Source: Bacteroidota bacterium (lineage in GTDB: Bacteria > Bacteroidota > Bacteroidia > Flavobacteriales_D > Crocinitomicaceae). From it: DNA of 64,000 bases. The stretch's first letter is position 1, and the number at the start of each line of letters is the position of its first letter. Position numbers and translations under genes: made by a program. The DNA is taken from assembly GCA_006226425.1 (NCBI GenBank), contig SBGX01000032.1:1-64000 (forward strand). Reading direction: 5' to 3'. The notes under the pieces are model-generated. The model searched no databases, had not been told where the DNA came from, and was given only the letters and a program-made list of their open reading frames with translations. Positions 20,077 through 59,007 of this stretch are shown in pieces.

Positions 20077-21048
20077 ATGAAAAAGCATGTGTTCGTTGCC
20101 GCTTTGATGTTTGGAACATACTTTGTGGCTCAGGCTCAGGATGGAGGAAAAGTCCTGATTAATACGGAGTATGATGAGCCGTATCGAAATAAATGGAATG
20201 TGGCTGCCTTTGCTGGTCTGGAGATTCAGGCAAAAAGTTCTGGAGGACTATATTACGGTGCATCGGCAAGATATACATTGGCAAAAGTAGCGACCTTCTA
20301 TGCGAATTTAGGTTTAGATATGACTTCCGCGTCAAAGTCAGGAGGGATTTTGAAATTTGACGAAGAACTGATGGGGAAATTGCCTTCTTTCAAGACAATT
20401 GAGTTGAGAGGAACATTCCACTTTAAAGATCAGGAAGGTCAAAAGACCCAGAAAGTGAGTCTCGGTTCGGATGGGCGTTATGAGTACTCGACCAATTATA
20501 CGACGAAATCAAGAGTAGTTCGAGGGATTACAGCTTCTTTGAACTTCAATAGCCGGGCGTATGTACAGAATGTTGACAGCACGTTAATTCTGGATGTACG
20601 TGATCAAAATGGAGGAAACCCTGGGTACATTCAGGGCTTGGCCACCGGACAGAACAACATGTTCATCGGTTTAGGTTTTCACATGGCAGAATACACCTTC
20701 TATAAAGGACAATTTACCGGAGGAGCTCACGGAACGACTAAAACCAGACGTTTGAAGCGAATGGTCAACACCAACTTTGAATTGCTATTTGCTCCTGCTA
20801 TCGCAGTTGGTGATGAGGCGTATTTGAAGGACGGAGGCCAATTGTTTACATATAATGTTGAGAATGTAGAGAAAAAGAATTTGGGCTTTCGGATCACAGC
20901 TGATGTGCTCAATGGAAAGCCAGGATTTTATGCCCGCGTAGAAATGGGGACTAAACCAGGAATAAAGGCACCTTTGAAGACGGACTCTAAGATCGGGAAG
21001 TATCTGACGAACGGATACTTTGCGATGAGTTTTGGTTTTGGTTTTTAG
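20077..21048 (+). CDS. Outer-membrane protein of unknown function
   Basis: 323 residues. It has a clear signal peptide (MKKHVFVAALMFGTYFVAQAQ). The mature part is rich in alternating aromatic and polar residues, for example LYYGASARYTLA, TFYANLGLDM and RGITASLNFNSRAY. It ends in FAMSFGFGF, a terminal-aromatic beta-barrel-like C-terminus typical of outer-membrane proteins. I do not recognise the family. It is a single gene between the tsf terminator and a convergent methyltransferase-like gene (30-base gap). Confidence 0.7.
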   Translation: MKKHVFVAALMFGTYFVAQAQDGGKVLINTEYDEPYRNKWNVAAFAGLEIQAKSSGGLYYGASARYTLAKVATFYANLGLDMTSASKSGGILKFDEELMGKLPSFKTIELRGTFHFKDQEGQKTQKVSLGSDGRYEYSTNYTTKSRVVRGITASLNFNSRAYVQNVDSTLILDVRDQNGGNPGYIQGLATGQNNMFIGLGFHMAEYTFYKGQFTGGAHGTTKTRRLKRMVNTNFELLFAPAIAVGDEAYLKDGGQLFTYNVENVEKKNLGFRITADVLNGKPGFYARVEMGTKPGIKAPLKTDSKIGKYLTNGYFAMSFGFGF

Positions 21049-21078
21049 TGATAAGTTTGCGTAAGCGTAAGGTGCTTT

Positions 21079-21939
21079 TTATTCCGAAACGAAGGGGAAG
21101 TCTCGGATTTCGTCGAATGCTTTTTCATCTACCTGGCATGCAGGGTGGTCAAACAAAGCTTCAACCGGGATTTCTTCTACTTCGTTTTGCAACAAATCCT
21201 TTCTTAAGAAAATAAGATTGAATCCTCGTTGGTTGGCACCCACTAAACGATATCCTTTTTGTTGAGCCAGCTTATTCATGGCAACAACGGAAGCACCGTG
21301 ATATAAGGGGTGTTTCCCTGGGAAAACATAATTCGGATCATAGGGCGCAATCAAATCGTTTAGTCCAAATCCAATTTGCGTCTCAATGATGACCACTTGT
21401 GGGCTAATAACATTGATTGCCTTCCACACCCAGTAATCATTTCCATCTAGATCAATCGAAAGTAGACCAATTTCATCTTTCAGTCCTCCTTTAGAGATCA
21501 ATTCATTGATGTTTTCACTGGTGATTCGGTCATGGATAAAGGTGGGAGGAATGAAATGAGGGTGCGGGCGCTTTTTGAAAAAGGCACGACCGCGTTCAAT
21601 GGCACGCGCATTCCCGTCGATAAAGAGACCCTTCCAGCCAAAGTGAAAGTAAAGGTTGGCTGAATTGCTGTTGACACCGTCATCCGAACCAAATTCCACA
21701 AAAGTAGGATGTGTCATACCGAGTAGCGAGAAGAGAAATAATAGTTTTCCATCTTCTTCAAACTGAGAAAAGACCCTGAATCCGGTATCTTGCAGATTCG
21801 GAAGGACTCCCTTTTTTTGCTGTTCCTGATAATACAATACGAGCTTCCGCTGTTCGATTTGTACAGCCGGACTAAAACGTTCCTTTATATATAGGTATAG
21901 GAAGCGCTTTTTAAGATGGTGTTTGATCCATTTTTTCAT
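21079..21939 (-). CDS. FkbM-like SAM-dependent methyltransferase
   Basis: 286 residues, no signal peptide; the N-terminus is strongly basic. A Rossmann-like SAM site is suggested by TFVEFGSDDGVNSNSANLYF (motif I, about 104-123), WKGLFIDGNARAIERGR (second strand acidic residue, about 128-144) and LLSIDLDGNDYWVWKAI (about 183-199), the pattern of FkbM-type methyltransferases. These often modify sugars or lipids in surface glycans, but no glycan gene is adjacent, so the substrate is open. It is convergent with the outer-membrane protein gene. Confidence 0.65.
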   Translation of the reverse strand: MKKWIKHHLKKRFLYLYIKERFSPAVQIEQRKLVLYYQEQQKKGVLPNLQDTGFRVFSQFEEDGKLLFLFSLLGMTHPTFVEFGSDDGVNSNSANLYFHFGWKGLFIDGNARAIERGRAFFKKRPHPHFIPPTFIHDRITSENINELISKGGLKDEIGLLSIDLDGNDYWVWKAINVISPQVVIIETQIGFGLNDLIAPYDPNYVFPGKHPLYHGASVVAMNKLAQQKGYRLVGANQRGFNLIFLRKDLLQNEVEEIPVEALFDHPACQVDEKAFDEIRDFPFVSE

Positions 21940-22182: not shown

Positions 22183-25100
22183 ATGTTGCGAAAACTCAAT
22201 TTAGTTATTGTAAGCGTCTTGATGACAGTTTCTTATGCTGTGGCCCAAGGTGGTTTGGGAACGGTAAAAGGATCTGTGATCGACGAGAGCTCTAAGGAAC
22301 CAATTTATGGTTGTAAAGTGTTACTTAAGCAAAACGGAAACGTTAAAGGAGGTGCGAACACCGATTTTGACGGAAAGTTTCAGGTAAACTCGATTGCTCC
22401 AGGTTCCTATGATGTGGAAATCCGAAATGAAGGAGAAGGTTATCAGGCCAGTTTGACTACAGGTGTGATTGTTTCTGCGAACAAGATTACGTTCCTGGAT
22501 AATATGACCCTCGGAAAAGCAGAATCGGTGAAGGAAATTGAGGAGGTAAAGGTAGTTGCCTACCGAGTTCCTTTGATTGATAAGGATGGAGGTGCTTCCG
22601 GTGCAACTGTGACAAGGGAAGATATTGCCCGATTGCCTGTTCGTTCTGCAGCTGGAGTTGCAGCCACAGTAGGTGGGGTAAATGCTCAGGAAGGTGGAGG
22701 TATCAGCGTGCGTGGTGCACGTGAAGATGGTACCTATTTCTATATTGATGGAATTAAAGTACGTGGATCATCCAGTCTTCCGAAGTCTGCGATTGAAGAG
22801 GTTTCCGTAATTACTGGGGGGCTTCCTGCAAGCTACGGGGATGCCACCGGGGGGATTATCTCGATTACAACTCGTGGTCCTTCAGCGAAATATTTTGGTA
22901 GTGCGGAATTAGTAACTTCAGGGTTCTACCTGAAAGGAAAAGATGAGAACGGCTACGACGGAAAAGTTTTCGGTTTGGATAAGTACGGATACAACCTTTT
23001 TGAAGGAATGCTTTCCGGTCCACTTTGGATGCAGAAAGATTCTACAGGTCGTAAAACTAAACCAAGATTGGGATTCTTGATCTCAGCGAACATTACGGAT
23101 CAATTGGATGGCCGTCCTTTGGCAGGTGGTGATTACCGAGTGAAGAAAGATGTGCGTGAAGCATTGTTGGAAACACCATTGGTTCGAGTAGGAGATATTC
23201 CATTTAGTTCTTCCAACTTCTTGAGATTAGATGATTTTGAGAAAGTAGATTGGAGAATGAACGCACGATCTACAAATGTTTCGGCTTCAGGTAAAATTGA
23301 TGTGAACACGGGGCCAAACATGAACTTGACATTCGGTGGTTCGATGAACTATAACTTTGGAAAAAGCTATAGCCGTTCAGGAGCCCTGTTGAACTTTACA
23401 AACTTTGGTGATTATCAAAACCTGGACTGGAGGGTTTATGGTCGATTGACGCAACGTTTTACAAATCGTCAGGAAGAAGGATCCAGCTCCAAGATTAAGA
23501 GTGCTTACTACTCGGTGATGGTGGATTTCTCCAGATCGGTACGTAAGTTCTTTGATGACAAACACCAGTACAGTCTCTTTAACTATGGTCACGTTGGAAA
23601 GTATGATATTCAAATGGAACGTCGTTACTCCCGTCGTGATGTGAACGGAAACCTTTACTTTGAGCAGGAAGCGATTCCAGAGCCAGTATTGGTGACCTTT
23701 ACGCCATCTGAAACAAACCCTGAATTGGCTGCTATCACAAGTCAGTATTACCGAATTTTCGAAAATGATCCAATCGGACATTACGAAGATTTATTCCAGA
23801 TTCAGTTGGGGAATGCCTTGAGAAACGGAGACGTTCCAAGTAGTGTTTACTCATTGTGGTCAAATATCGGGACGCCTTATAACTCATTTGGGAAAGCAGA
23901 AAACGATCAGTTCCGTGTAACAGGTTCCGGATCGGTGAACATTGGGGATCACTCACTTTCACTTGGTTTCGAATTTGAAAAAAGAACGGATAGAGGTTGG
24001 ACTAGCGGAGACAATGGACCAATTGGATTGTGGACATTGGCTCGTCAGTTGGCGAACAAGCACCTGGCTGAGTTAGATCGAAACAAAGTGATTACTTTCA
24101 ATAAAGGAACGCATACGTATTTCGCTTACGAAGTATTGAATGCTGGTGATGCTTATCAAAATGGTAATGGGAAGTACGGTGGATTCAATGATGACCAGTC
24201 CTTCTTCGATTACAACTTGAGAACACAGGTTTATGGAGATCCAACGAATTCAGAGTTTTTGAATATCGATGCCCTTGATCCGAACATCATGAAGTTCGAT
24301 ATGTTTGCTCCGGACGAACTGTTTAACAGTGGTAGTTCTTACGTTTCTTACTGGGGGTATGACCATACTGGTAAGAAAGTAAAAGGAAATACAGATATTG
24401 ACAACTACTTTACAGATGTTGATGAGAATGGAAACTACGTTCGTAAGATCGGAGCTTTCCAACCAATTTATGTAGCAGGTTATTTGATGGATAAGTTTGC
24501 ATTCCGTGACATCGTATTTAACGTCGGTGTTCGTGTGGATATCTTTGATGCAAACCAACCAGTGTTGAAGGATAAGTATTTGCTTTATGAAGCAAACTCT
24601 GTACGTGAGGCGAATAGCTTGAAATCAACTGATCCAAGCAAATATTCCTGGGTGAACATTCCAGGTTCGATGGGAGAAGATTACGTGGTATATGTAAACG
24701 ACGTAAACAATCCAACAGCGATCAACGGATTTAGAGACGGAGATACCTGGTTTGATGCAAATGGTGCCGTTGTAGAAGATGCTCGTGATTTGCGTGGAGC
24801 TGGAGGTATCGCACCGTGGTTGTTGAACCCAAGTAATCAAACAGTGAACTCAAGTGCATTTGAGGATTACAAGCCACAGATCAATGTGATGCCAAGGATC
24901 GCATTCTCATTCCCAATTTCGGATGAGGCATCTTTCTTCGCTCACTACGATATCTTGACAAAACGACCAACTACAGCATTGCGTTTTGATCCTTATCAGT
25001 ACCACTACTTCAAGGAAAGAACAACGACTTTGAGTAATCCAAACCTGAAACCAGAAACAACAATCGATTACGAATTAGGTTTCCAGCAGGTATTGTCAAA

Positions 25101-25941
25101 AACATCTTCGTTGAAAATTTCAGCTTTCTATCGTGAGCAAAGAAATAACGCACAGTTGATCAACGTCTTTGAAGCATACCCACAATCGTATGTGACTTAT
25201 GGAAACAGAGACTTCGGTACAGTGAAAGGTTTGACTGTTTCTTATGACTTGAGAAGAACTGGAAACTACCGAATGACAGCGGCTTATACCTTACAGTTTG
25301 CTGACGGTACAGGTTCAAACGCAAACTCTGCGGCTAACCTGATCAGTGCAAACCAACCAAACCTGAGAACAATTTTCCCATACGACTACGATCAGCGTCA
25401 CGCATTTGCAATTACAGCTGATTACCGTTACGGAGATGGAAAAGACTACAACGGTCCTGAAATCAAAGGGAAGAAGATTTTGGCAAATACTGGTTTGAAC
25501 ATCGTATCAAACATTTATTCAGGATCTCCTTATTCAGCGCAAAACGCGATTACGAACGACGGATCTTTCTCACCACTTTCAGCTGGTTTGACAGGAACAA
25601 CAAACGGATCTCGTTTGCCATGGCAGTACCGATTGGATCTTCAGTTGGATAGAACTTTCAACCTGGAGTTCGGAAAAGAAGGAGAGAAGAAAAAAGCAGC
25701 GTTCCTGAATGTATACGTACGTGTAACGAACCTGTTTAACCAGTTCAATGTACTTGGAGTATATCGTGCAACTGGTAACCCGGATGATGATGGTTATCTG
25801 GCAGCAGCTGAATTCCAGCAAGCAATCCAGAACCAACAGGATGAGCAATCATTCCGTGATTACTACCTGATGAAAATTCAGAATCCATTCAATATTAGTG
25901 TACCAAGAACAATAAGATTAGGTATAAAATTTGATTTCTAA
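22183..25941 (+). CDS. TonB-dependent outer-membrane receptor with carboxypeptidase-like N-domain
   Basis: 1252 residues. Signal peptide (1-21), a CarboxypepD-regulatory-like/CNA-B-type domain (about 25-110: GTVKGSVIDESSKEPIYGCKV), a TonB-box-like stretch (EEVKVVAYRVPL), a plug domain (about 135-225: ISVRGAREDGTYFYIDGIKVRG, GGLPASYGDATGGIISITTRG) and a long beta-barrel ending SVPRTIRLGIKFDF. It imports, or helps export, a substrate in a TonB-energised way. Codon use is strongly biased toward CGT, AAC, GGA and CCA, like the ribosomal genes, which suggests high expression. It is followed 19 bases later by a giant secreted protein and then a PorV-like gene. The ligand is unknown; no SusD partner is present, so it is not a typical glycan SusCD pair. 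Confidence 0.92.
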   Translation: MLRKLNLVIVSVLMTVSYAVAQGGLGTVKGSVIDESSKEPIYGCKVLLKQNGNVKGGANTDFDGKFQVNSIAPGSYDVEIRNEGEGYQASLTTGVIVSANKITFLDNMTLGKAESVKEIEEVKVVAYRVPLIDKDGGASGATVTREDIARLPVRSAAGVAATVGGVNAQEGGGISVRGAREDGTYFYIDGIKVRGSSSLPKSAIEEVSVITGGLPASYGDATGGIISITTRGPSAKYFGSAELVTSGFYLKGKDENGYDGKVFGLDKYGYNLFEGMLSGPLWMQKDSTGRKTKPRLGFLISANITDQLDGRPLAGGDYRVKKDVREALLETPLVRVGDIPFSSSNFLRLDDFEKVDWRMNARSTNVSASGKIDVNTGPNMNLTFGGSMNYNFGKSYSRSGALLNFTNFGDYQNLDWRVYGRLTQRFTNRQEEGSSSKIKSAYYSVMVDFSRSVRKFFDDKHQYSLFNYGHVGKYDIQMERRYSRRDVNGNLYFEQEAIPEPVLVTFTPSETNPELAAITSQYYRIFENDPIGHYEDLFQIQLGNALRNGDVPSSVYSLWSNIGTPYNSFGKAENDQFRVTGSGSVNIGDHSLSLGFEFEKRTDRGWTSGDNGPIGLWTLARQLANKHLAELDRNKVITFNKGTHTYFAYEVLNAGDAYQNGNGKYGGFNDDQSFFDYNLRTQVYGDPTNSEFLNIDALDPNIMKFDMFAPDELFNSGSSYVSYWGYDHTGKKVKGNTDIDNYFTDVDENGNYVRKIGAFQPIYVAGYLMDKFAFRDIVFNVGVRVDIFDANQPVLKDKYLLYEANSVREANSLKSTDPSKYSWVNIPGSMGEDYVVYVNDVNNPTAINGFRDGDTWFDANGAVVEDARDLRGAGGIAPWLLNPSNQTVNSSAFEDYKPQINVMPRIAFSFPISDEASFFAHYDILTKRPTTALRFDPYQYHYFKERTTTLSNPNLKPETTIDYELGFQQVLSKTSSLKISAFYREQRNNAQLINVFEAYPQSYVTYGNRDFGTVKGLTVSYDLRRTGNYRMTAAYTLQFADGTGSNANSAANLISANQPNLRTIFPYDYDQRHAFAITADYRYGDGKDYNGPEIKGKKILANTGLNIVSNIYSGSPYSAQNAITNDGSFSPLSAGLTGTTNGSRLPWQYRLDLQLDRTFNLEFGKEGEKKKAAFLNVYVRVTNLFNQFNVLGVYRATGNPDDDGYLAAAEFQQAIQNQQDEQSFRDYYLMKIQNPFNISVPRTIRLGIKFDF

Positions 25942-25960
25942 TTCTTAATAATTGAAAGAA

Positions 25961-28900
25961 ATGAAAAAGTTGAAGAACATTGCGTTAATAGCCATTGGCC
26001 TGGCGGTAACCAATCTGAGTTATGGATACAACCATGACCAGAAAAAGGGAACTAAAAAGGGTGGCTCAGCGACTTACAACAAAGCGAACTGTGCACCGGC
26101 TTCGTCTAAATTAATCATCGAATTTAACGATGTAAAGGCGTTGATGGAACCAGGGGGATTGTTGTTCTTGGATCGTGCGAACGGAGCAGCTTATGAGGTT
26201 CCAAAAGGAGGAGGAGTTATGGCAATTTACGCCGGGTCACTTTGGATGGGTGGAACGGATGTAAACGGTCAGTTGAAATTAGCTGCACAGCGTTTCCGTG
26301 ATAGTGGGGTTGATTTCTGGACTGGTCCATTGACTGTTACCCAGGGATCTGGAAACTATGATCCACTTTCGCCGGTTGGAGACAATGCTCGAAGAGATTA
26401 CGGAGAAGCTACAATTATTCCTGAACAGTGTTTGGCGTATGACAAATTCTTTTCAATCTCGAAAGCAGAGGTAGTTCAATTTGCTGCCTGGTACGAATAT
26501 AATTTGAATCCGATTGGAGATCCGGTAGAAGCTCCTTCTAACGAGTCGATGAACCGAATTAATAACTGGCCTGCTCATGGGGATGTCAGTTTGGGACAGG
26601 ATTTTTATTTGGCACCGTTCTATGATAACAATCAGGATGGAGTTTATGATCCGCTTGAAGGAGACCACCCATGGTACGATGATATTCTTGGTCGTGATGA
26701 TGTAGAATGTGGAGTTGACCGACGAATTACATTGTTTGGTGATGAGACTCACTGGTGGGTATTTAATGATAAAGGGAACATTCACGGGGAAACTGGTGGA
26801 GATCCAATCGGGATGGAAATCCGTGCACAGGCTTTTGCTTTTGCAACGGATGATGAAATCAACCGAATGACATTCTACAACTACGAGTTGATTAACCGTG
26901 GTACCCAGACTTTGCAGGATACTTACTTCTCTAAGTACGTGGATTCTGATTTGGGGAACTATAATGATGACTACGTTGGTTGTGACGTAACCAGAGGATT
27001 AGGATACTGTTTTAACGGAGACCTGTTGGATGAGCAAAACACATCCAGCCAGGGATATGGGGCAAATCCACCGGCAATCGGGGTTGACTTCTTTGAAGGA
27101 CCTTATCAGGATGCTGATGGAGTTGATAACATCGGACCGGTTGATTCCTTGGATGAAAATGGAAACTTTGCTGGATTGATCATTCCTTCTGTTGCGGAAG
27201 CGATTGCAGATAAAGGAATTGTATATCGTGGAATCGGGTTGGGATACGGTGATAACATCATCGATAACGAGCGATTCGGAATGCGTTCTTTCATGTACTA
27301 TACGGCTGGAGCAGGTGCCGGTCAAAGTGACCCACGTACAGCAGCACAGCATTATAACTACATGCAGGGTAACTGGTCAAATGGTACACAAACAGTGTAT
27401 GGAGGTACTGGTTTCCCAGGTTCAACAGGATCAACTACGATTCAGGCAGATTATATGTTCCCGGATGATTCAGATACATTGAACTGGGGAACAAAAGGAG
27501 AAGCTCCAGGTTTCCCTTGGTCTGAGGTAACAGATGGAAACGAACCGGGTGACCGTCGTTTTGTACAGTCTGCTGGTCCATTTACATTGAAGCCAGGAGC
27601 GGTGAACAACATTACAGTTGGGATCGTTTATGGTAGAAGTACAGACGGAGATGCCTTTGCTTCCGTACGTGCATTGAAACGTGCAGATACAAAAGCTCAG
27701 GCTTTGTTTGATAACTGTTTCCGAATTTTTGATCCGCCCCAGGCGCCAAAATTGACGATTCAAGAAGTTGAGAATGCATTGATCTTGATGTTGGACAACC
27801 CTCCTTCTACTTCAAATAATGGGAATGAGGAGTATAAGCAAGAAGACAAAATCAACATTCCTGTAGATATTATTGATCGTACATACATTTTTGAAGGATA
27901 TCAGATTTATCAGTTAGCTGGTGAAGACAACTCTGCAGCTGATATTGGTGATCCAACAAAAGCAAGATTGGTAGCACAGTGTGATATCAAGAATAATATT
28001 TCAAGAATCGTAAACTTCGAATTTGATGAAGGACTAGGATTCTCTATCCCGGTGGAAAAAGTGGACGGTTCAAATGAAGGAATCAAGCACAGCTTCAAAA
28101 TCACAGAAGATCAGTTCGCTCAAGGTGAACGTACACTGGTGAATCACAAACGTTACTACTATACGGCAATTGCATACGCATACAACCAGTATAAAGAGTA
28201 CGATCCAAATGACCCAGAGAAGTTGGATGGTCAGAAAAGACCTTATGTATCATCTCGTTTGGGCTATGATGGAGCAGCGATTCAGGTAATGGAAGGAATT
28301 CCACATGATCCAACTTTTGAAAAAGGAGGAACAATCATTCCATTGGATTATGGAAGTTCACCAGAAATCACTCGTTTGGATGGTCGTGGAAACGGAAATC
28401 GTTCCGTGGAATTAACTCAGGCATCCATTGATTACATTATCGCCAATGGTTACCAGACAAACCCAACTTATAAGAAGGGGGCTGGACCGCTGAACGTGAA
28501 AGTAATCGATCCTTTGAATACGGCTTCTGGATATTTTGAATGTAGATTCAGAGATTATGTGAACAATGGTTCGGATGAATCGAGAAACTATCAGGGAACG
28601 GATACAGCTAGTTGGGTAGTATATCGTTATGATAAAAAAGGAGGAAGTATTATTGATTCAGTTGCTTCCGACAGAACGATTGAAGTGGCAAACGAACAGT
28701 TGATTCCTGAGTGGGGAATTTCGATCGAAATTTATCAGGATCAGTACTATATGGCATCCGGTTCCGGAGCGGAGTACCAGCGATATACACCACCAATTGA
28801 GGCGGTGGTTGAATACGAAGATTCTACACGTCAATGGTTGAGTTTTGTCGAGGATGACGGGGCTTTCTTCCCAACGAACTGGATTCGAAGTGGAGATTAT

Positions 28901-30115
28901 GAACCACAAGCAGGAGAAGATAATCCGGACTTGGGGGTTCAGAACCCAACCTGTTATGCAGATGAATTGGGAGAGGATGTGAACAACTCATACTCCAGTC
29001 TGCTTGGTGGAGGGATCGCACCGTATAGATTAGTTGGTTATCAGTGTGATTATATGCCGATTGCTTACCCAGCTAATTACACCAGCTTCGCAAACTCAAG
29101 AAACCGAAATGGTATTTCCAGAGCACCAAGTGTGGACATTGTGATTACGAATGATAAGAGCAAATGGACACGATGTGCGGTAGTAGAATTGGGCCGTGAT
29201 GAAAACCTGAATGTAGGTGGAGTTGCAGCAGGTAATCTAAGAGGAAGTTTAAGTGTCGATAAAGAAGGAAATCCTGATGGTTCCGGAACAAACGGAATGG
29301 GATGGTTCCCAGGATATGCTATCGATGTGGAAACGGGAATGCGTTTGCATATGGCCTTTGGAGAGAATTCATTCCTTGGTGGAGAGAATGGTTCGGATAT
29401 GATCTGGAACCCGACTTCAAACCTGGTGAACTCTACAGGAGGTCCGTTGCTGGGAGGTCTTCAGCCGGTCTATGTATTTGGATACCGAGTGAACGATGAG
29501 ACGGATGCATCTAGAGAGTGTCCATATTATGACGGGGTAAACACCTGGGTCATTGACAAGTTCCAGACAGCCAGTTCTTCGAGTTTCTCAGATATCTTTA
29601 TGAACCTCGTTTGGGTAGTAAACCCAATGTTGGCTCAGGGACAAGAGTTGATGTCCAATGATCTACGCATTAAGGTTCGCGTGAACAAAGAGTACAACGA
29701 CTTCGTAGCAACTAATGCGAACGGTGGTCGCCCAATGTATGGTTGGACGATGGATGGTTTGAGCACACAAACGAGTGTTGCGAGCGCTGTACAGGAAAAA
29801 TTGGATAAGATCAGCATTGTTCCAAACCCTTACTACGCATATTCTGAATATGAGCGCAATCGTTTGGACACACGTGTGAAGTTGACAAACCTTCCACAAC
29901 AATGTACGATCAAGATTTACAATGTTTCTGGTAAATTGATTCGAACGTACAAAAAGGATAATGATTTGACATACCTGGATTGGGATATGAAGAACTCAAA
30001 AGGAATTCCGATTTCCAGTGGGGTATATATGATCCATGTGGATATTCCGGATGTCGGTGAAACAGTCATCAAGTTCTTTGGTGGAGTTAGACAAATTGAC
30101 CTGGAGAATATTTAA
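25961..30115 (+). CDS. Giant secreted protein with FlgD-like/T9SS-type C-terminus
   Basis: 1384 residues from the ATG at 25961; a TTG-initiated extension to 25952 is less likely. Signal peptide (MKKLKNIALIAIGLAVTNLSYG). Most of the length has no recognisable enzyme motif; there are calcium-type acidic stretches (DNNQDGVYDPLEGD at about 228-241). The last ~95 residues (ISIVPNPYYAYSEYE, IKIYNVSGKLIRTYKK, DWDMKNSKGIPISSGVY) form a FlgD-Ig-like/T9SS type A-like sorting domain. It shares highly biased codons with the receptor upstream, and its stop overlaps the ATG of the upstream-most PorV-like start by one base (TAATG at 30113-30117). It is probably an abundant cell-surface or secreted protein. 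Confidence 0.85.
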   Translation: MKKLKNIALIAIGLAVTNLSYGYNHDQKKGTKKGGSATYNKANCAPASSKLIIEFNDVKALMEPGGLLFLDRANGAAYEVPKGGGVMAIYAGSLWMGGTDVNGQLKLAAQRFRDSGVDFWTGPLTVTQGSGNYDPLSPVGDNARRDYGEATIIPEQCLAYDKFFSISKAEVVQFAAWYEYNLNPIGDPVEAPSNESMNRINNWPAHGDVSLGQDFYLAPFYDNNQDGVYDPLEGDHPWYDDILGRDDVECGVDRRITLFGDETHWWVFNDKGNIHGETGGDPIGMEIRAQAFAFATDDEINRMTFYNYELINRGTQTLQDTYFSKYVDSDLGNYNDDYVGCDVTRGLGYCFNGDLLDEQNTSSQGYGANPPAIGVDFFEGPYQDADGVDNIGPVDSLDENGNFAGLIIPSVAEAIADKGIVYRGIGLGYGDNIIDNERFGMRSFMYYTAGAGAGQSDPRTAAQHYNYMQGNWSNGTQTVYGGTGFPGSTGSTTIQADYMFPDDSDTLNWGTKGEAPGFPWSEVTDGNEPGDRRFVQSAGPFTLKPGAVNNITVGIVYGRSTDGDAFASVRALKRADTKAQALFDNCFRIFDPPQAPKLTIQEVENALILMLDNPPSTSNNGNEEYKQEDKINIPVDIIDRTYIFEGYQIYQLAGEDNSAADIGDPTKARLVAQCDIKNNISRIVNFEFDEGLGFSIPVEKVDGSNEGIKHSFKITEDQFAQGERTLVNHKRYYYTAIAYAYNQYKEYDPNDPEKLDGQKRPYVSSRLGYDGAAIQVMEGIPHDPTFEKGGTIIPLDYGSSPEITRLDGRGNGNRSVELTQASIDYIIANGYQTNPTYKKGAGPLNVKVIDPLNTASGYFECRFRDYVNNGSDESRNYQGTDTASWVVYRYDKKGGSIIDSVASDRTIEVANEQLIPEWGISIEIYQDQYYMASGSGAEYQRYTPPIEAVVEYEDSTRQWLSFVEDDGAFFPTNWIRSGDYEPQAGEDNPDLGVQNPTCYADELGEDVNNSYSSLLGGGIAPYRLVGYQCDYMPIAYPANYTSFANSRNRNGISRAPSVDIVITNDKSKWTRCAVVELGRDENLNVGGVAAGNLRGSLSVDKEGNPDGSGTNGMGWFPGYAIDVETGMRLHMAFGENSFLGGENGSDMIWNPTSNLVNSTGGPLLGGLQPVYVFGYRVNDETDASRECPYYDGVNTWVIDKFQTASSSSFSDIFMNLVWVVNPMLAQGQELMSNDLRIKVRVNKEYNDFVATNANGGRPMYGWTMDGLSTQTSVASAVQEKLDKISIVPNPYYAYSEYERNRLDTRVKLTNLPQQCTIKIYNVSGKLIRTYKKDNDLTYLDWDMKNSKGIPISSGVYMIHVDIPDVGETVIKFFGGVRQIDLENI

Positions 30116-30141
30116 TGTCAACATTTAAAGCAAGAAAGAAG

Positions 30142-31197
30142 ATGAACAAGATAATGAAACATTCAGCTTTTGTAGGGGCATTACTGATCGGAGGTTTTGT
30201 AATGGCCGGAAATGAGGATCGAGTAGGTTCTGCCGGGGCATCTCAGTTGATGGTAAATCCATGGGCCAGAAGTGCTGGTTCTGCAGATGCTGGTTTTGCA
30301 AGTACCAACGGACTGGAAGCAAGTTATATGAATATTGCAGGTCTCGCATACAATGACAAGACTCAGATCAAAATGAACATGACCAACTGGTTGGGAAGTG
30401 CCGGAATTAAGTTTTATTCGGCAGGTATTGCTCAAAGAGTTTCCGAGAGTGGTGTATTGGCACTTAGTGTACAATCCATGAATTTCGGAGATGTCATGAT
30501 CACAACAGTTGACAACCCGGAAGGGGGAATCGGGGTGTTTACTCCGAGAATCAATGTCTTCAACGTTGGTTATGCGAAGAAATTCTCGAAGTCTATTTCA
30601 GGGGGAATCAACTTCAAAGTGATTTCTGAGAGTATCTCAAATATGAAATCAACAGGAGTTGCAGTAGATGCAGGTATTCGCTACGTAACCGGAGAGCAGG
30701 ATCAAATTAAGTTTGGGATCGCACTGAAAAACATCGGACCTACGATGAAGTATCGTGGAGACGGGTTGAGTAATCAGGTGACTTATGTTTCTACTGGGAA
30801 CCTGGCTACTTTGGAGCAACGCTCACAAACATTTGAGTTGCCATCTTTGTTGAACATCGGTGCTTCTTATGACTTCATTTTCTCAGAGACGAGCAAGTTG
30901 ACTGCTATGTTTGGTTTCACGGCAAACTCCTTTTCTCAGGACCAATATCGTTTGGGGCTTGATTACGGAATGGCCAAAGAAAAGGCAGCATTCAACCTGA
31001 GACTGGGTTATGTTTACGAGAAGAACATTTTCAGTATCGAGAACAGAACGAATGCACTATCCGGTCCAACAGCAGGTTTTTCTGTTGACGTGTTGGCAGG
31101 AAAGAGCAAGAGTCCGCTGGGAATTGAATACGCAACAAGAATGACCGGTCCTTTCGGTTTGATCCACACCTTCGGAATCACGATTGGAGTAAAATAA
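30142..31197 (+). CDS. PorV/PorQ-family outer-membrane protein
   Basis: 351 residues from the ATG at 30142, preceded by a purine-rich AGAAAGAAG; the in-frame ATG at 30115, overlapping the previous stop, would give 360 residues. A signal peptide is followed by the family signature GASQLMVNPWARSAGSADAGFAST and a FadL-like beta-barrel ending IHTFGITIGVK. PorV shuttles T9SS cargo from the translocon to the attachment complex. A dedicated homologue beside a T9SS-type cargo suggests a cargo-specific role, which is inference. Confidence 0.82.
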   Translation: MNKIMKHSAFVGALLIGGFVMAGNEDRVGSAGASQLMVNPWARSAGSADAGFASTNGLEASYMNIAGLAYNDKTQIKMNMTNWLGSAGIKFYSAGIAQRVSESGVLALSVQSMNFGDVMITTVDNPEGGIGVFTPRINVFNVGYAKKFSKSISGGINFKVISESISNMKSTGVAVDAGIRYVTGEQDQIKFGIALKNIGPTMKYRGDGLSNQVTYVSTGNLATLEQRSQTFELPSLLNIGASYDFIFSETSKLTAMFGFTANSFSQDQYRLGLDYGMAKEKAAFNLRLGYVYEKNIFSIENRTNALSGPTAGFSVDVLAGKSKSPLGIEYATRMTGPFGLIHTFGITIGVK

Positions 31198-31217: not shown

Positions 31218-31253
31218 AACAAGGGAGTCAAGCAATTGGCTCTCTTGTTTTTT
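31218..31253 (+). terminator. Terminator-like hairpin in the greA leader
   Basis: AACAAGGGAGTC (31218-31229) pairs with 31238-31249 (12 pairs, two of them G-T or T-G), an 8-base loop lies between, and six T follow. It can end the TonB/PorV operon, but it also lies at the predicted 5' end of greA mRNA, so it may act as an attenuator. Confidence 0.8.
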
Positions 31254-33577: not shown

Positions 33578-35875
33578 TTACTCTGCGACAACTTGTCCTG
33601 TAAGCACCAAACGCAAGGGGTCCTTAGCGCCTTTAACGTGTACATAGATGGATTTGACTACCTTTCCTTCGTATCCTTTTGGATCGAAGGTCATGCTTAC
33701 TTTTGTTTTCTCTCCAGGCTGAAGAACTTTTTTCTCCAATTCAGCTGTGCTACAATGACATGGAACTTCAACGTGATCTATTTCAAGGACCTTTTTCGAA
33801 GAGTTTTCGATCTCGAAGGTTCTCGTATACTTTTGGTCCGGACGGATCGTTCCCAGATCAATCAACTGTTTGGGGGTGATTAGATAATTGTTGGAATCCG
33901 CTTTCATAAAGGAGACGCTTTGCACTTCGATTTTTCGTTCTAGCGAGGCAGAACGCGAATAGATGGAGTTTTTCAAATCCTGGGGATTGTCGCTGGTGAG
34001 TTTGGCCGCTTTGTATTCTCCAAAGGGAACTTGCTGAATGGTGAGTCGCGCACCGTTGGGGGCCCTGTTCTCCAGATATGGTCTAAATTCTCCCTTTCCA
34101 TATTGCGAAAGGTAGTTGACCAGTGAGGCAATTCGGCGTTTGGTGAGATTTACATTATAATCTGTTTTGGCGAGAGGGCTGGCAAATCCCTTGACGGTTA
34201 GTATGAGTGAGCGACCTTTTTCCAGTTCTTTGAGAACGAGTTTCTGAAAGATTTCCAGGTCTTTGACTCCTTGTTGTACATATTCAATGAAAAAGCTTTC
34301 GATGTCTTCCTCGGCATCTGTTTTTTTATCTCCACTCAACCCCCTGGAATATTCGTGCTTGTATTTCGGGATCATGCCTACATAATCTTTGTAGCTATTT
34401 ATATAGTTGACTTTTGTCGTCGTATCTCTGGAACGTGGATTGGGAATGTCGTTATGGAAATAGAGCGTTACTGGCAATTTCCGGTTCATTTCTTCCAGAC
34501 TTTTATAGGGAGATGGTGGATCGCTATTTTCTGCATTGTCAACTAACAGGCTGTCTCCTCCTGTTTTTTCATGAATTTGCTTTAATTCTTCATCTGGAAG
34601 CTGAAAGGCGAATACGTCAGAACAGCAGGTTGGATTATTGGTGTACTGAACTCCGATTCGGTTGGTACTCAGGTAGGCACTGTCTCCATGTCTGAAATAG
34701 TAAAGATCGTTTGCCGAACTATTGATAGGCAATCCTGCATTGACAGGGTCTTTGAATTGACCATCTGAAAATTCGGAATAATAGATGTCATAGCCCCCGA
34801 ATCCATAAAACCAGGAGGAGGAGAAATAGAGTCGTTGAAGCTCCGAATCATAAAAAGGGCTGAGTTCCTGGTCAATTGTGTTGACGGTTCGAACGGCAAT
34901 CGGTTTGGCGTATTGATTTCCGTCCTTTATGTGTGAATAGTAAATATCCAGTCCACCGGAACCATCTAGCCTTTCTGAGGAGAAAAATAAAGTTTCCTTT
35001 CCCTGAAAAAGAGAAATAGAAGGCATGGTGTTCGAAGCATCTTCGTCATTGATGATTTCACCTAACGTGTCAATCGAAGTCAATTCATTGTTTTTGTACA
35101 GAGCGACCAGTATTTTACAGGACATTTCTCCTTCATCCTGACGGCAACTGCTAAAATAAAAACGCTTGCCATCCAGTGAAAAACTGCCATTTCCAAGGTG
35201 TTGCTTAGGAGCGTTTAGAAGAACCTGCGCCTTTTCTTTTTCCATCGGAACTCGATAGAGTGCATTTCGGTAGTGACTGGCGTAAACTTCATCATTCTTC
35301 TGATTACTTGAATCTGCTTTTAGCGATGAGAAGAACAATTGCTTATTCCGGATGCTGTGTCCAAATTCGGAATCTTCCGTATTGACGAATGCGCCGAGGG
35401 CATTCAGTTTTATATCCAGGCTATCGAGCATTGCTTTTTTAGCCCAAAGGCATGACGCAATTTCCTGACGGGATTTCAGATAATAGTATCCTCTCTTTTC
35501 AGAAACGAATTTTTTCTTGGCTTCTTTGAAGCTCTTAATAGCCTCTGGATACTTTCCGTTGTTCTTTTGCATTTGTCCCAGATAAAAATAGGCCTCCGGG
35601 AAGTCCCGGGATTGTTTATTCTGAGTCATTTGCTCGTAAACTTCTTCCGCTTTCCGATACTCCCGGTACATTCGGAGACTTTCGGCATAATTCCACCTGA
35701 CTTTCGGGTCACTATCATCGACACTCAAGGCCTTTTCATAATAGAAAATTGCAGAGATGTAATCTCCGTTCTTTTTTTGGGAATCTGCAAACTCAACGAA
35801 ATCATTGTAAAAATTCTGAGCCAGCAAATTTCCTGTCATCCAGGTAAAAAGCACTATCAAATATATTCGGGACAT
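33578..35875 (-). CDS. PorE-like OmpA-family protein with C-terminal DUF1573-like domain
   Basis: 765 residues. Signal peptide (1-19), TPR helices (about 20-150; YISAIFYYEKALSVDDSDP), PD40 propeller (about 170-440; GNGSFSLDGKRFYFSSC, GSGGLDIYYS, GFGGYDIYYS), an OmpA-like segment (about 530-655; SLILTVKGFASPLAKTDYN, LTKRRIASLVNYL) and a C-terminal domain (about 665-765) resembling DUF1573 (LGTIRPDQKYTRTFEIENSS, VEVPCHCSTAE, LQPGEKTKVSMTFDP). The OmpA part is weaker than in the 1949-4285 protein, and the DUF1573 tail is unusual for this group. It overlaps the upstream PorP/SprF gene by 19 bases. Confidence 0.78.
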   Translation of the reverse strand: MSRIYLIVLFTWMTGNLLAQNFYNDFVEFADSQKKNGDYISAIFYYEKALSVDDSDPKVRWNYAESLRMYREYRKAEEVYEQMTQNKQSRDFPEAYFYLGQMQKNNGKYPEAIKSFKEAKKKFVSEKRGYYYLKSRQEIASCLWAKKAMLDSLDIKLNALGAFVNTEDSEFGHSIRNKQLFFSSLKADSSNQKNDEVYASHYRNALYRVPMEKEKAQVLLNAPKQHLGNGSFSLDGKRFYFSSCRQDEGEMSCKILVALYKNNELTSIDTLGEIINDEDASNTMPSISLFQGKETLFFSSERLDGSGGLDIYYSHIKDGNQYAKPIAVRTVNTIDQELSPFYDSELQRLYFSSSWFYGFGGYDIYYSEFSDGQFKDPVNAGLPINSSANDLYYFRHGDSAYLSTNRIGVQYTNNPTCCSDVFAFQLPDEELKQIHEKTGGDSLLVDNAENSDPPSPYKSLEEMNRKLPVTLYFHNDIPNPRSRDTTTKVNYINSYKDYVGMIPKYKHEYSRGLSGDKKTDAEEDIESFFIEYVQQGVKDLEIFQKLVLKELEKGRSLILTVKGFASPLAKTDYNVNLTKRRIASLVNYLSQYGKGEFRPYLENRAPNGARLTIQQVPFGEYKAAKLTSDNPQDLKNSIYSRSASLERKIEVQSVSFMKADSNNYLITPKQLIDLGTIRPDQKYTRTFEIENSSKKVLEIDHVEVPCHCSTAELEKKVLQPGEKTKVSMTFDPKGYEGKVVKSIYVHVKGAKDPLRLVLTGQVVAE

Positions 35876-36852
35876 ATCCGATGCAGATGTTTGTTTGGTT
35901 TGAACTTGATGATGATGTATCTCAGACTGATTTCTAGTCCACCTCGTCCGCTGCTCGCAGGCTTGAGGGAGGAAATGTTGACATCGTAACTGACCCCGGC
36001 ATACCAGTTTTGGTAATCCAGACCGGCGGTAAAGAAGAAAGAATCCTTGCTTCGGAACATGAGTCCTGCATTCACTGCCCGGTAGTGATTGGGATTTGGA
36101 TCCAGATGATATTTCAGATTGGCTCCCGCTAAAATTTCCCGATAAGTTCCCTGCATTTGAAGCATGGCAGTGGGGTTCAGGTCAAGATCTTTGTAGATAT
36201 TAATTCGACTTTGAAAAAACAGATTAAAGCGCACATCCCTTCGAACGACCGTACCATAAAAGCCCTGATTCGGTTGATTCAAATTAAACACGGAAAAGCC
36301 AAAGTTAAACTGGTGTCGCTTGTCCATGTAATATTGATAAATGAAACCTGCTCCGATGGAGAGATTCGTTTTTTTGTCCGTGTTGAGCGCTTCTGTATTT
36401 GGAATACTCGGGTCGAAAATGAATCCGTTGTATTGTTCGTCGAAGTAAAACTGATTGAACTGAAATTGGCGGTGATTGAGTGCCAAATGTGCCCCCAGCT
36501 GAATGCGATGCACAGAATCCTGAGTTAGTAATCTTCGATAGGATGGATTGACCTGAAGTTCGATCGTTCTGAAAATACCGTCTCCTGCCTGGTCGTGGAA
36601 TAAGCATACTCCAAGTCCATAATCGGGGTTTTTCATACGGGTATCGTAAGACATGGAAAAAGTTTGAAAGGGCTTCGTAACACTCCGCCACTGATCTCTG
36701 AAATTCAGATGAAAACGATGGTCACCCCGGAAATTCCCACTATGTGCCGGATTCAAAAAAACCGGATTTTCATTGAATTGGGTCCAGTGGATATCCTGTG
36801 AAACAGCGTAGTTACAACACAGTAAAAGGAATATGAAATATAAATTTCGCAT
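35857..36852 (-). CDS. Second PorP/SprF-family T9SS membrane protein
   Basis: 331 residues. The signal peptide and signature IHWTQFNENPVFLNPAHSGNFRGDHR, plus FRDQWRSVTKPFQTFSMSYD, match PorP/SprF; a beta-barrel pattern follows. It overlaps the following PorE-like gene by 19 bases, so the two are coupled. No type B cargo gene is next to this pair, unlike the pair at 1031-4285, so it may serve cargo encoded elsewhere or the core machinery. Confidence 0.88.
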   Translation of the reverse strand: MRNLYFIFLLLCCNYAVSQDIHWTQFNENPVFLNPAHSGNFRGDHRFHLNFRDQWRSVTKPFQTFSMSYDTRMKNPDYGLGVCLFHDQAGDGIFRTIELQVNPSYRRLLTQDSVHRIQLGAHLALNHRQFQFNQFYFDEQYNGFIFDPSIPNTEALNTDKKTNLSIGAGFIYQYYMDKRHQFNFGFSVFNLNQPNQGFYGTVVRRDVRFNLFFQSRINIYKDLDLNPTAMLQMQGTYREILAGANLKYHLDPNPNHYRAVNAGLMFRSKDSFFFTAGLDYQNWYAGVSYDVNISSLKPASSGRGGLEISLRYIIIKFKPNKHLHRICPEYI

Positions 36853-54300: not shown

Positions 54301-57300
54301 ATGCAGATTAAATCAATTATATTCTCGGGAGTTGTGTTGGTTCTGTCCTTTTTGGGATACGGGCAGGAGGATCATTGGATGGTTTCGGCAGTTGGAGAAA
54401 CAGTGAGTGAGATACTTGATGTTAAAACGGACGATCAGGGATATACCTATGCCTGTGGATATTTTAGCGGTGAATTGCAGCTTCAAGGTCAGGAAATTTC
54501 CTCCAATGGACCTTTTGGAGATGTGCTATTATTGAAAATTGACCCGAAAGGAAAGTATGAATGGGTTAAGACGCTGGGAGGAACAGGCAATGATCGAGCG
54601 ATTCAAATAGAGTTAGATAAGGATGGAAATTTAATTGTGGTTGGTACCTATCAGACAGCCGTAGATTTTGAGGGAAACATATTGAATTCAGTGGGTGACT
54701 CAAGAGATTTGTTTATTCTGGAAATGGATTCGCAGGGGAAAGTACTTTGGGCGAGATCCGAAGGGGGAGTAGGAGATGATGATGTTAGTGGTCTGGCGAT
54801 TGACCAGGAAGGAAACATTTTGTTAACCGGTAGATATAGGGGAAAAACACTTTTTGGAGGACAGGAATATACAAGTGCAGTAAATCCTGAAACAGGGGAG
54901 GATAGCTACGATATGTATTTAATGAAGTTAAACCCTGCTGGTCAGGTGTTATGGTCGAGGACGGGGGGAGGAGAATATCGAGATAGGGGCTTATCTGTTG
55001 CTGTGAATAAATTGAATCAGGTGTTCGTTTCGGGAGAGATGTCGGATACAATTGTGTTTTTTGGAGGAACGATAAACAACGCGCAAAAAAATATTGGCTT
55101 TTTAAGCAAAGTTACGCCAACAGGAAGTTTGATGTGGATGAAGCGATTTGTTGGGGCACAGGTTTTATGTAGTGATATTGTTTGTACGGAGGATAATGAG
55201 GTTGTTATGACAGGGGACTTTAAAGGTACCCTCACGATTTGGGACGGAAGTAACTACGTTAGTACACCAGATAATAGTTATGACAATAAAATTTTTACTT
55301 GTAAAATAGGTGCGGATGGGGCCCTCAAGTGGTTCGACTCAAAGGGTTCTCAATCAGAGCTAAAAGGAAAGAGTATTGCTGTTGATGCACAAGAAGGAAT
55401 ATATGTGACAGGAACCTTCAAATGTAATTTTGATGAGTTTCGGGCGATGACATCCACTGCTTTTTGGCAAAGTGCAGGCTTTTGGGATATTTATACCTGT
55501 CATTATTCTTCTAACGGTCAGCTAGAATGGTATTGGCAGTCCGGGGGGTCGGGAAACGAGATAAGTTACGGAATCACTGTGAATAATAATGGGAGACCTA
55601 TTTTAGGGGCATCGGTCGACGAGGAGTTCGTTTTCGCATTTAAAAAAGGAGAATTTTCTCAGACGTCTAATTATCCAGATGAAGTTTATGGTTTCGTGAG
55701 TGCACAATCAACGGTAGCGGATTATGGTGGGAGTGGTTTGGGAGGGGTCACCAGAATGATGGTGGCCAATATGATTTCAGAAAGATCTACAGATTATACC
55801 ATTTATCAGTATCCCAGGAGCTATAAGGATTCTGTTCGTCCCTTTTTCACGCCAAACGTGGATACCGCCCGTTTATGCCCGGATCAGTATGTGAATTGGT
55901 ACTCTGGGACCATGACAGACGGAGGGCCGCAATATGATCTGAAATATTATTATAATGGACAAACCGGAGAGTTCCCAATACAGTATAAAACGGGAACTTA
56001 TGTCGTGGAGTACGAACGTAAGGATCGCTGTTTCTCAAGTGGAGATACCATCTATGTCATTAGGTATCCAAGGCCGCCATTACCGTTATTGAGTGATAAT
56101 ATTGGGGTGAATATAAAGGAACCGAAATACAAAGATGTTGAAGTGTGTTACGATACGTTGCAATTTTGGTTCCAGGATATATGTGTTGGCTGTACATTAG
56201 GGGTGAAATCAACATCGATTGATCAAATTGGAGTATTAGAAAATGACACTTTGACGGAGAGTGTAAATTCGATTATTCATGTAAATGTTGCTGATTCGAT
56301 TGGTTGCATGAATAGTAGTTATTTTGCTTATAAACGAGTGAGTAGTATAAAACCATACCTGATTTTTGCTGATCCAGATTTGAATGATAGCATACAGCTT
56401 TGTGACAAAGGCTTGGTGATCGCCCTCGTGGCAGATTCAATTAGTAACCCTACGGGAGAATGGTATTCCCATGTAGAAAATGTACTTTCGAGTTCTGTGA
56501 AAGTGTTTTATCAGAACCAGGAGGTTCCGGCAAGTACAGATGGCTATGATCTTGAGTTTTCAGTTGAACAGGATGGGTGGTATTATGTCAATGAGTACCT
56601 GACGGTTGGTTCCAGCCAATGTCCACAGAGTTATGTGATTGTAGACTCTATCTTTTGCGAAATTAAGAGGCCACCTGAGCTAGAAATTTCTCCTGGAGGA
56701 GAACTTTGCCCTGGAGATTCCATGTACATTGTCACGACCGTTGTCGCAGACACATTTGTCTGGTATGGGCCTAGTATCAGCTGGGTGAGTGAAAATCGAG
56801 ATAGTATTTTAGTCAATGGACCAGGTAGTTATTCAATTGTCGCAAGTTATAATTTTGAAGAGATTTCCTGTACAGCCATGGGGGTCAGAAATGTCACAGT
56901 GAAGACGACTCCAAAGGTGCTGATGGATCCGGAAGACGGTTTAATCTGCCCGGGAGATTCAGTAAAGCTGTATTTAGATCGCATAGGAAACTCTTATCTT
57001 TGGTTGGACTTGTCGGGTGATAGTATATCAAAAAATGAGATCACTTATGTTCAGGATCAAGGCTTTTATGCTTGTTTATTTGAAGACGAAGATGGATGTT
57101 TATTATTAACAAGTCAGGTCGAGGTAAAAAAGTACGCAACCCCGTTTTTGGAGTTGACACCAAAGGATTTTATATGTCGGGGTGAGACAGCAGAGATTTC
57201 AGTCATTTTTGTTGGTGATGCGGGCATTCAATGGCATGCCCCAATTGAATCACAAGAAAGCAAAATAGAAGTCGATAAGGCAGGATGGTATGCGGCTACG

Positions 57301-59007
57301 GTGCAGCAATGTGGTTTCTCGGTGACAGATAGTGTTGAACTGATTGATGGATCATTTGAAGTTGAATTACTTGTTAATCAAGAAAATCCATTGTGCTATG
57401 GTGATTCAATCCGTATCGAAGCCGATGTTTCTGCTGAATTTTATGAATGGAACGTCATCGGAGAGTTAAATAAGGTTTTTTATGCAAAGGAACCCGGTGC
57501 GTATTTCGTGAAGTGTTGGAATAGCTACGGTTGTCTTGAAATTTCCGATACAGTTTATATTGAAGCGCATGATCAGTCATGGCCACCAGAAATAGGATCA
57601 GTCACAATTTGCCCTGGAGAGTATGCTACGTTAATACATGATGGAACTCGCAATGTTGAATGGTATTATTCGGATTCAGATTTGGGATTTTTCTCCACGC
57701 AGGATACGATCATTCTTGGACCGATCAATAAAGACAGTAGTGTTTACGCATCCTATAGTTATGATCAGTGCCCCAGGTATTATACTCAAGTTTTGATTGA
57801 TGTTTTGGAGCCGATTGAAGAACCATCAATTATAGGAGATTCTTTAATTTGTACAAATCTTCCATATTTGACGCTGGAGACTGAAGAAGGTAAAGACCGT
57901 AAGTATCGATGGGTCTTGTCTGGAGACACCATTGGTGATCAAAGAATTTTGCAGTATGGACCTCTAGGTGGGTTGAATGACTCAGTTTTTTCGGTGTTTG
58001 TATGGGACAAATGCTCTAGCAATCAGGCTTCCATTGTTTTGAATCTTCGAAGTGAAGACCAAATAGAAATAGCGAATTACATTGACACATTGTGTTTGGG
58101 AGAGAGTTTTAGGAATTACATTACGATAAACGAAAATTTGGATCACTTTTGGTACGACGGAAACCAACTATGGGTGGCAGATTCCTTAATTATTCCCTTT
58201 GATGAGGTAAATGAGATCGTCCAAGTATATAATATTAATGAGTATGGTTGCATCTCGGATACCCTGACGGTGACGATCAAAAAAGCTGATTCAATAAGTT
58301 TAGTTCCTTTTATCGAAGGACTTGGTTGTGAGCAGAATGAAATAAAACTTCAAGTAGAAAATGAACTTAACCCATTAGTATGGACGAAACCTGATAACTC
58401 TCAAAGCGAAGGTGCCGAATTGGTCATTTTTCCATTGCATAAATCTGATGAAGGGATGTATCAGGTAAGTTTCGTCGATACGTTGAATTGTGTCCATAAC
58501 GACAGTCTTTATCTCGAGGTTTATTTGAACCCGAACTTTGAACTGGGAAATGACACCATTGTGTGTGCTAATGATTTGTATTCCCTGACACTACCTTTTG
58601 ACATTGAAACAGATTGGGTGTTCTGGTGGAATCAGGGAGATTCTGCGCAGTATATAGTACCCGATGGTCAGGGCATAATAACGTTAAGTGCCTTGAATGA
58701 ATTTGGATGTATTTTCTCGGATAGCATTCGGGTTGAACTGGTGGACTGTCAGGGAGAGGCGGCAAATGTTGTAACTCCGAATGGAGACGGCATTAATGAG
58801 CACATAACTGTTTTTAATGCCGAGTATATGTCCAATAATCACATTAGGGTTTATAATAGATGGGGCAACTTAATGTTCGAACAGTCGAATTATCAAAACA
58901 ATTTTAGTCCAAGAGAATGGTCTGATGGAGTTTATTTTTACGAATTTCATTCTGGTCAGGATGGGCGCAGGAAGGTTGGATATTTTCATTTAATTAAAAG
59001 TAAATGA
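54301..59007 (+). CDS. Giant T9SS type B cargo with SBBP-like propeller and Ig-like repeats
   Basis: 1568 residues. Signal peptide (about 1-21), then an SBBP-type beta-propeller-like region (about 25-470; repeated DxxGNxxVxGxYxG and LYLMKLNxxGxVLWSRTGG patterns), then a long array of Ig-like/PKD-like modules with recurring LCPGDS or ICPGD sequences (about 520-1470), and a C-terminal type B sorting domain (about 1480-1568; VVTPNGDGINEHITVFN, VYNRWGNLMFEQSNYQNNF, WSDGVYFYEFHSG). It is probably a large surface adhesin. Codons are more AT-rich than in the neighbours (many ATA, TTA, AGT), unlike the biased operon at 22183-31197. No PorP/SprF gene is adjacent. Its stop overlaps aroK by 4 bases. Confidence 0.88.
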   Translation: MQIKSIIFSGVVLVLSFLGYGQEDHWMVSAVGETVSEILDVKTDDQGYTYACGYFSGELQLQGQEISSNGPFGDVLLLKIDPKGKYEWVKTLGGTGNDRAIQIELDKDGNLIVVGTYQTAVDFEGNILNSVGDSRDLFILEMDSQGKVLWARSEGGVGDDDVSGLAIDQEGNILLTGRYRGKTLFGGQEYTSAVNPETGEDSYDMYLMKLNPAGQVLWSRTGGGEYRDRGLSVAVNKLNQVFVSGEMSDTIVFFGGTINNAQKNIGFLSKVTPTGSLMWMKRFVGAQVLCSDIVCTEDNEVVMTGDFKGTLTIWDGSNYVSTPDNSYDNKIFTCKIGADGALKWFDSKGSQSELKGKSIAVDAQEGIYVTGTFKCNFDEFRAMTSTAFWQSAGFWDIYTCHYSSNGQLEWYWQSGGSGNEISYGITVNNNGRPILGASVDEEFVFAFKKGEFSQTSNYPDEVYGFVSAQSTVADYGGSGLGGVTRMMVANMISERSTDYTIYQYPRSYKDSVRPFFTPNVDTARLCPDQYVNWYSGTMTDGGPQYDLKYYYNGQTGEFPIQYKTGTYVVEYERKDRCFSSGDTIYVIRYPRPPLPLLSDNIGVNIKEPKYKDVEVCYDTLQFWFQDICVGCTLGVKSTSIDQIGVLENDTLTESVNSIIHVNVADSIGCMNSSYFAYKRVSSIKPYLIFADPDLNDSIQLCDKGLVIALVADSISNPTGEWYSHVENVLSSSVKVFYQNQEVPASTDGYDLEFSVEQDGWYYVNEYLTVGSSQCPQSYVIVDSIFCEIKRPPELEISPGGELCPGDSMYIVTTVVADTFVWYGPSISWVSENRDSILVNGPGSYSIVASYNFEEISCTAMGVRNVTVKTTPKVLMDPEDGLICPGDSVKLYLDRIGNSYLWLDLSGDSISKNEITYVQDQGFYACLFEDEDGCLLLTSQVEVKKYATPFLELTPKDFICRGETAEISVIFVGDAGIQWHAPIESQESKIEVDKAGWYAATVQQCGFSVTDSVELIDGSFEVELLVNQENPLCYGDSIRIEADVSAEFYEWNVIGELNKVFYAKEPGAYFVKCWNSYGCLEISDTVYIEAHDQSWPPEIGSVTICPGEYATLIHDGTRNVEWYYSDSDLGFFSTQDTIILGPINKDSSVYASYSYDQCPRYYTQVLIDVLEPIEEPSIIGDSLICTNLPYLTLETEEGKDRKYRWVLSGDTIGDQRILQYGPLGGLNDSVFSVFVWDKCSSNQASIVLNLRSEDQIEIANYIDTLCLGESFRNYITINENLDHFWYDGNQLWVADSLIIPFDEVNEIVQVYNINEYGCISDTLTVTIKKADSISLVPFIEGLGCEQNEIKLQVENELNPLVWTKPDNSQSEGAELVIFPLHKSDEGMYQVSFVDTLNCVHNDSLYLEVYLNPNFELGNDTIVCANDLYSLTLPFDIETDWVFWWNQGDSAQYIVPDGQGIITLSALNEFGCIFSDSIRVELVDCQGEAANVVTPNGDGINEHITVFNAEYMSNNHIRVYNRWGNLMFEQSNYQNNFSPREWSDGVYFYEFHSGQDGRRKVGYFHLIKSK

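Follow-up and report, generated by a model that had tools for sequence, protein, structure and literature searches.

It is known that T9SS cargo proteins with a type A signal use the general barrel PorV, while those with a type B signal use a cognate PorP/SprF barrel, which is often encoded next to them (PMC12618676; PMC9143113). PorZ is retained with PorQ, and it has been proposed that this is perhaps because the cognate barrel shields the signal (PMC10202324). In this study we analysed a stretch of DNA of 64,000 nucleotides, here called the window, whose nearest named relatives are Fluviicola and other Crocinitomicaceae. It carries three adjacent genes, referred to as the trio, for a TonB-dependent receptor, a giant T9SS protein and a PorV-family barrel. 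Type B/SprF pairs have the same order, with the substrate followed by the barrel (PMC12618676). The features of the locus are as follows.

22183..25941, + strand: TonB-dependent receptor gene, 1252 aa (ORF call)
22534..22563, + strand: TonB-box-like segment EIEEVKVVAY, receptor residues 118-127, an EVKVVAY-type motif before PLIDKD
25961..30115, + strand: giant T9SS surface protein gene, 1384 aa (ATG 25961, TAA 30115)
26708..27760, + strand: most conserved core of the giant (approximate, ~residues 250-600)
29813..30112, + strand: T9SS type A-like C-terminal domain (CTD), nearest to that of PorZ, then the conserved extra tail VIKFFGGVRQIDLENI
30115..31197, + strand: PorV-family (FadL-type) barrel gene, likely true start 30142
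31218..31249, + strand: intrinsic terminator between the trio and greA, 14-pair stem and T-run

Layout and codon usage of the locus

The receptor, giant and barrel genes are a single unit closed by a strong terminator, whose hairpin has a folding z-score of -5.3. The short gaps noticed in an earlier, sequence-only reading of this DNA are both present, with the ORFs at the positions listed: 19 bases separate the receptor from the giant, and the giant-barrel junction is a TAATG overlap. Because the predicted signal peptide of the barrel starts at Met10 (30142) and because gaps of mostly ~20 nt are usual at both trio junctions in the loci of relatives, the barrel probably starts at 30142, not at 30115. 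Sigma-70 promoter matches showed no excess over shuffled sequence. That reading had also pointed out the lack of SusD, and our domain search agrees, finding no SusD domain in the trio or in two upstream genes. Between tsf and the trio (20077-21939) lie two genes without any Pfam family match, which encode a predicted outer-membrane protein of 323 aa and a second protein of 286 aa. In many loci of relatives (L044, L059, L236 and others) the receptor is preceded by two further genes, one for a small basic protein of ~97 aa and the other divergent and lipoprotein-like, with a product ending in ..YDGxxLRIYN; the examples of both that were searched gave no Pfam matches.

The claim that codon use is as biased as in ribosomal genes holds nearly for two of the three genes. 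With rpsI, rpsB and tsf as the reference, three genes only, which themselves score 0.71-0.73, codon adaptation is 0.673 for the giant and 0.671 for the receptor, just under the ribosomal genes and higher than in all other genes of the window, while the barrel, at 0.600, is high yet less extreme. This reference is small, but the reference-free ENC in 36 loci of relatives gives the same picture: the trio has a mean ENC of 41-42 versus 48.9 in neighbours, and the giant lies below every unlabelled neighbour of >200 aa in 26 of these loci.

Distribution of the trio and its link to the T9SS

The giant is found in all 49 good genomes of close relatives, in 148 of the 150 genomes of the order, in 208 of 247 genomes of the class (at least four of these matches are weak) and in 88/148 genomes of the sample of the phylum Bacteroidota, where many distant matches span the core or the CTD alone. 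The sequence-only reading had made conservation of the gene neighbourhood its check, and the result is in its favour: the genes stand contiguously as TonB-giant-PorV in 28 of the 40 loci from the order and in 31 of the 38 from class and phylum, fractions that describe giants and not genomes because the loci were fetched for holding a giant. Where the full order is lacking, the locus mostly holds a solo giant paralogue or lies at the end of a contig. The trio order persists into other classes, and in class loci greA and HIT usually come after the trio.

Several variants of the locus were also observed. A solo giant paralogue of 65% identity with the same tail lies in the source genome at G000:C4:16620-20630 (L002, L053), with no receptor or barrel adjoining, and solo copies recur among relatives, several of them beside a peptidase-like gene. 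Three loci (L043, L069, L089) have one barrel between two giants, in the order TonB-giant-PorV-giant-greA. In four loci of other classes (L211, L213, L215, L225) a GWxTD-domain protein (PF20094) adjoins the trio, usually directly 3', and some of these encode 5' of the trio a protein of ~250-300 aa with a lipoprotein-like start; our search for literature on the function of trio-adjoining GWxTD proteins found no usable paper.

The giant tracks the T9SS channel SprA in both the phylum and the class samples. In the phylum sample it occurs only together with the translocon: all 88 giant-positive genomes have SprA, and none of the 31 SprA-negative genomes, mostly from one family, has a giant (p=1e-15, a value that overstates the case because genomes are not independent). 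In the class sample the counts of giant against SprA are 203, 1, 36 and 7 (p=2e-5), with one exception to this rule. One family of the class sample, f63, has no convincing giant. Its SprA matches that of F. johnsoniae over the full length (3334 bits), from which we infer that f63 is Flavobacteriaceae, the family of F. johnsoniae. Other T9SS genes were seen in the window. At 33578-36852 (- strand) a PorP/SprF barrel lies beside a TPR protein that is PorE/CHU_0125-like and contains a DUF1573 domain, and no obvious type B cargo adjoins the barrel. At 54301-59007 (+ strand) a gene for a protein of 1568 aa bearing a T9SS type B signal overlaps a downstream shikimate kinase, not a PorP/SprF barrel.

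The giant, the barrel and the receptor

The giant bears a signal peptide, and its family matches are confined to the C-terminus. AlphaFold models of its two halves reach pLDDT values of 86 and 90. Homologues from other classes align best to the conserved core, and this N-terminal part has a weak likeness to the beta-supersandwich N-domains found in GH94/GH116 enzymes (Foldseek E=8e-5, TM only 0.16-0.25). One guess from this weak fold match is that the giant may handle a glycan ligand. A PDB sequence search with the giant alone gave no match, and neither did one with its profile. The viral fold library returned chiefly fibronectin-type and phage tail matches, which are uninformative, and the calcium-type loops of the giant amount to a single DxNxDG motif.

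The PorZ model NF052228 matches the tail of the giant with E=2e-11, though only its last 118 residues, scoring 43 bits against the 260 bits of full-length PorZ. The general CTD model TIGR04183 (Por_Secre_tail) gives E=9e-5 and 22.3 bits, slightly under its cut-off of 23 bits. By Foldseek the predicted CTD resembles PorZ (5m11, E=1.5e-6) and the RemZ CTD (8gl8_D, TMt 0.70), as well as the NucA CTD, the RgpB CTD and PorU; the RemZ and NucA CTDs are those bound in the translocon. With a signal peptide, an Ig-like CTD and a near-invariant lysine, K1371, close to its end, the giant has the characters of a T9SS type A protein. Beyond the usual CTD end there is a further tail (..K-W/F-FG..R..DL..F), which is conserved within the class and is absent or swapped for other extensions in other classes. 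Another type A cargo of the same window ends without it.

The barrel passes the PorV/PorQ family model NF033709 (E=1e-41, 143.5 bits versus a threshold of 90). It stays under the equivalog cut-offs of PorV (NF033710, 68 vs 250 bits), PorQ (NF033711, 76 vs 220 bits) and BamG (24 vs 250 bits). In a tree of 60 PorV-family sequences from 16 genomes, PorQ, PorV and PorV2 separate from a fourth clade of trio barrels (support 100), which takes in barrels from two other-class genomes. By sequence, therefore, the barrel is a member of a fourth PorV-family clade apart from PorV, PorQ and PorV2. The trio barrels overall do not form one clade, because the tree includes five other-class trios and two of them (G349, G404) have barrels that fall outside. 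We considered whether the barrel is simply PorV, and dropped this since the source genome also encodes its own canonical PorV, PorQ and a PorV2-like protein. Thus, the sequence-only reading of a PorV homologue beside T9SS-type cargo stands as to the cargo, which carries a PorZ-like type A signal, and needs amendment as to the barrel, which is not PorV. Four other-class genomes (G322, G350, G390, G404) have 16-17 PorV-family barrels each versus 2-10 in the sampled class genomes, and several of these barrels adjoin T9SS giants; cargo-barrel pairs have thus expanded broadly in these genomes.

An accessory role of the trio in outer-membrane biogenesis, similar to that of BamG/BamH as an extension of the Bacteroidota BAM, would agree with its FadL-type barrel, its weak BamG match and its wide distribution beside housekeeping genes. 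However, the BamG match lies far under the cut-off and reflects shared FadL ancestry, for which reason we rejected BAM membership of the barrel; in addition, the available text on the published BAM structures lists neither a TonB receptor nor a T9SS protein among the subunits, and the giant is missing in f63, the presumed family of F. johnsoniae. We regard such an accessory role as very improbable.

Partial distance correlations among receptor, giant and barrel are 0.66-0.80 when the greA distance is removed, and 0.16-0.35 for HIT, controls that are noisy because greA and HIT are short. Judged from these distances, the barrel evolves in step with the receptor and the giant. These results bear on an alternative explanation, that the giant is ordinary cargo, the barrel merely its shuttle, and the receptor co-transcribed for a separate uptake task. 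The type A CTD fold is what such cargo would have, the strong codon bias fits a structural protein, there is a very weak match to an S-layer protein (7ptp, TM 0.11), and the solo paralogues are giants with no receptor alongside. Yet the three genes co-vary and remain together across classes, the best signal match is to PorZ, a retained protein, and a separate barrel clade would be needless if PorV dealt with the giant. We therefore think this explanation unlikely, although it deserves more weight than the other alternatives.

The receptor has a signal peptide, a CarboxypepD_reg domain (PF13620, E=6e-11), the TonB-box-like segment, a plug (PF07715, E=1e-9) and a large barrel, and so shows the plug, barrel and TonB box of TonB-dependent receptors. 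A similar TonB-box-like segment occurs in most trio receptors; 17 of 18 have the plug domain, seven match a barrel model, and the receptor family is conserved as far as other classes. A PDB sequence search with the receptor alone gave no match. A TonB-dependent receptor can also be tied to export: the receptor Oar is needed for PopC secretion (PMC6434023). By analogy, the trio receptor could use TonB energy for release or assembly of the giant, which would make it a dedicated secretion route. Its layout of CarboxypepD_reg and plug, together with a match to the OMP_b-brl_4 model in one trio receptor, would suit this idea, but the window's own receptor has no Pfam match to OMP_b-brl_4, and the giant already bears a T9SS signal and tracks SprA. 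Such an export role is, in our opinion, improbable.

Proposed mechanism and comparison with known systems

We see about an even chance that the products of the trio work together as a single machine of the outer membrane, in which the giant is exported by the T9SS, anchored by its own barrel and acts as the surface partner of the receptor. In this proposal, Sec and then the T9SS would export the giant by means of its type A-like CTD, and at the SprA translocon the PorV-family barrel of the trio, in place of the general PorV, would pick up the giant. The CTD would remain uncleaved, as proposed for PorZ with PorQ, and the barrel would therefore anchor the giant on the cell surface, where it probably holds it. 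A dedicated shuttle and anchor is the simplest reading of a type A-like signal with a barrel encoded directly downstream. Since giant and TonB receptor are encoded together, the anchored giant presumably serves the receptor; it would sit over or beside it, as SusD does for SusC, and pass a ligand to the TonB-driven channel. By analogy, the trio probably serves uptake, import being favoured because TonB receptors normally import. Thus, we infer the dedicated giant-barrel pairing, the retention, the receptor contact and the direction of transport. Three observations speak against one machine: solo giants without adjoining receptor or barrel carry the same tail, some other-class trio giants lack it, and two trio barrels lie outside the clade. 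Likewise, all F. johnsoniae type A CTDs tested use PorV (PMC12618676), which counts against a dedicated barrel. The idea of a dedicated system in the sequence-only reading is thus borne out as far as a conserved, codon-biased, non-SusCD set of TonB, T9SS and PorV-family genes is concerned, as seen in trio order and co-variation.

A broader claim, which we hold more tentatively and at somewhat less than an even chance, is that the trio represents an ancient and distinct TonB machine with a T9SS-delivered giant partner and a dedicated barrel, a lipoprotein-free counterpart of SusCD that is near-universal in the order and common in the phylum outside the model families. The sequence-only reading saw in the trio a candidate for an undescribed system, and our literature search on PorV/PorQ and TonB operons likewise found no description of the trio (bioRxiv and most subscription journals lay outside its scope). 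The apparent absence of the trio from the best-studied family may explain this. If the proposal is true, T9SS export and TonB-driven transport join in one complex, a link of which we found no report; the PorV family gains a fourth functional branch; and use of the general PorV no longer holds as a rule for type A signals. That the trio is near-universal in the sampled order and frequent in the class, yet apparently absent from the presumed F. johnsoniae family, suggests that the phylum has a core surface function which was missed as the model organism lacks the trio.

The trio shares features with four described systems. PorZ-PorQ is alike in that a type A CTD surface protein, nearest to the giant CTD by sequence and fold, is reportedly retained and held by its own PorV-family barrel. 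Unlike PorZ, the giant is about twice as long and otherwise without PorZ similarity, a TonB receptor is co-encoded, and the barrel is not PorQ. SprB-SprF and PG1035-PorP, type B proteins with PorP/SprF barrels, likewise have a dedicated barrel directly 3' of the cargo, with non-covalent anchoring proposed, whereas in the trio the signal is type A-like, the barrel belongs to the PorV and not the PorP family, and a TonB receptor is added. SusCD and RagAB also combine a TonB-dependent barrel with a co-encoded surface protein, but in the trio there is no SusD, a T9SS protein replaces the lipoprotein, and a PorV-family barrel is the third component. In Oar-PopC of Myxococcus xanthus a TonB-dependent barrel is tied to a secreted protein; in contrast to the trio, we know of no PorV-family barrel or T9SS signal there. 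The trio is thus built from known parts. It would work somewhat in the manner of SusCD, PorZ-PorQ and SprB-SprF, yet by sequence comparison it falls outside SusCD, PorZ, PorV, PorQ and BamG, and we therefore treat it as a new variant.
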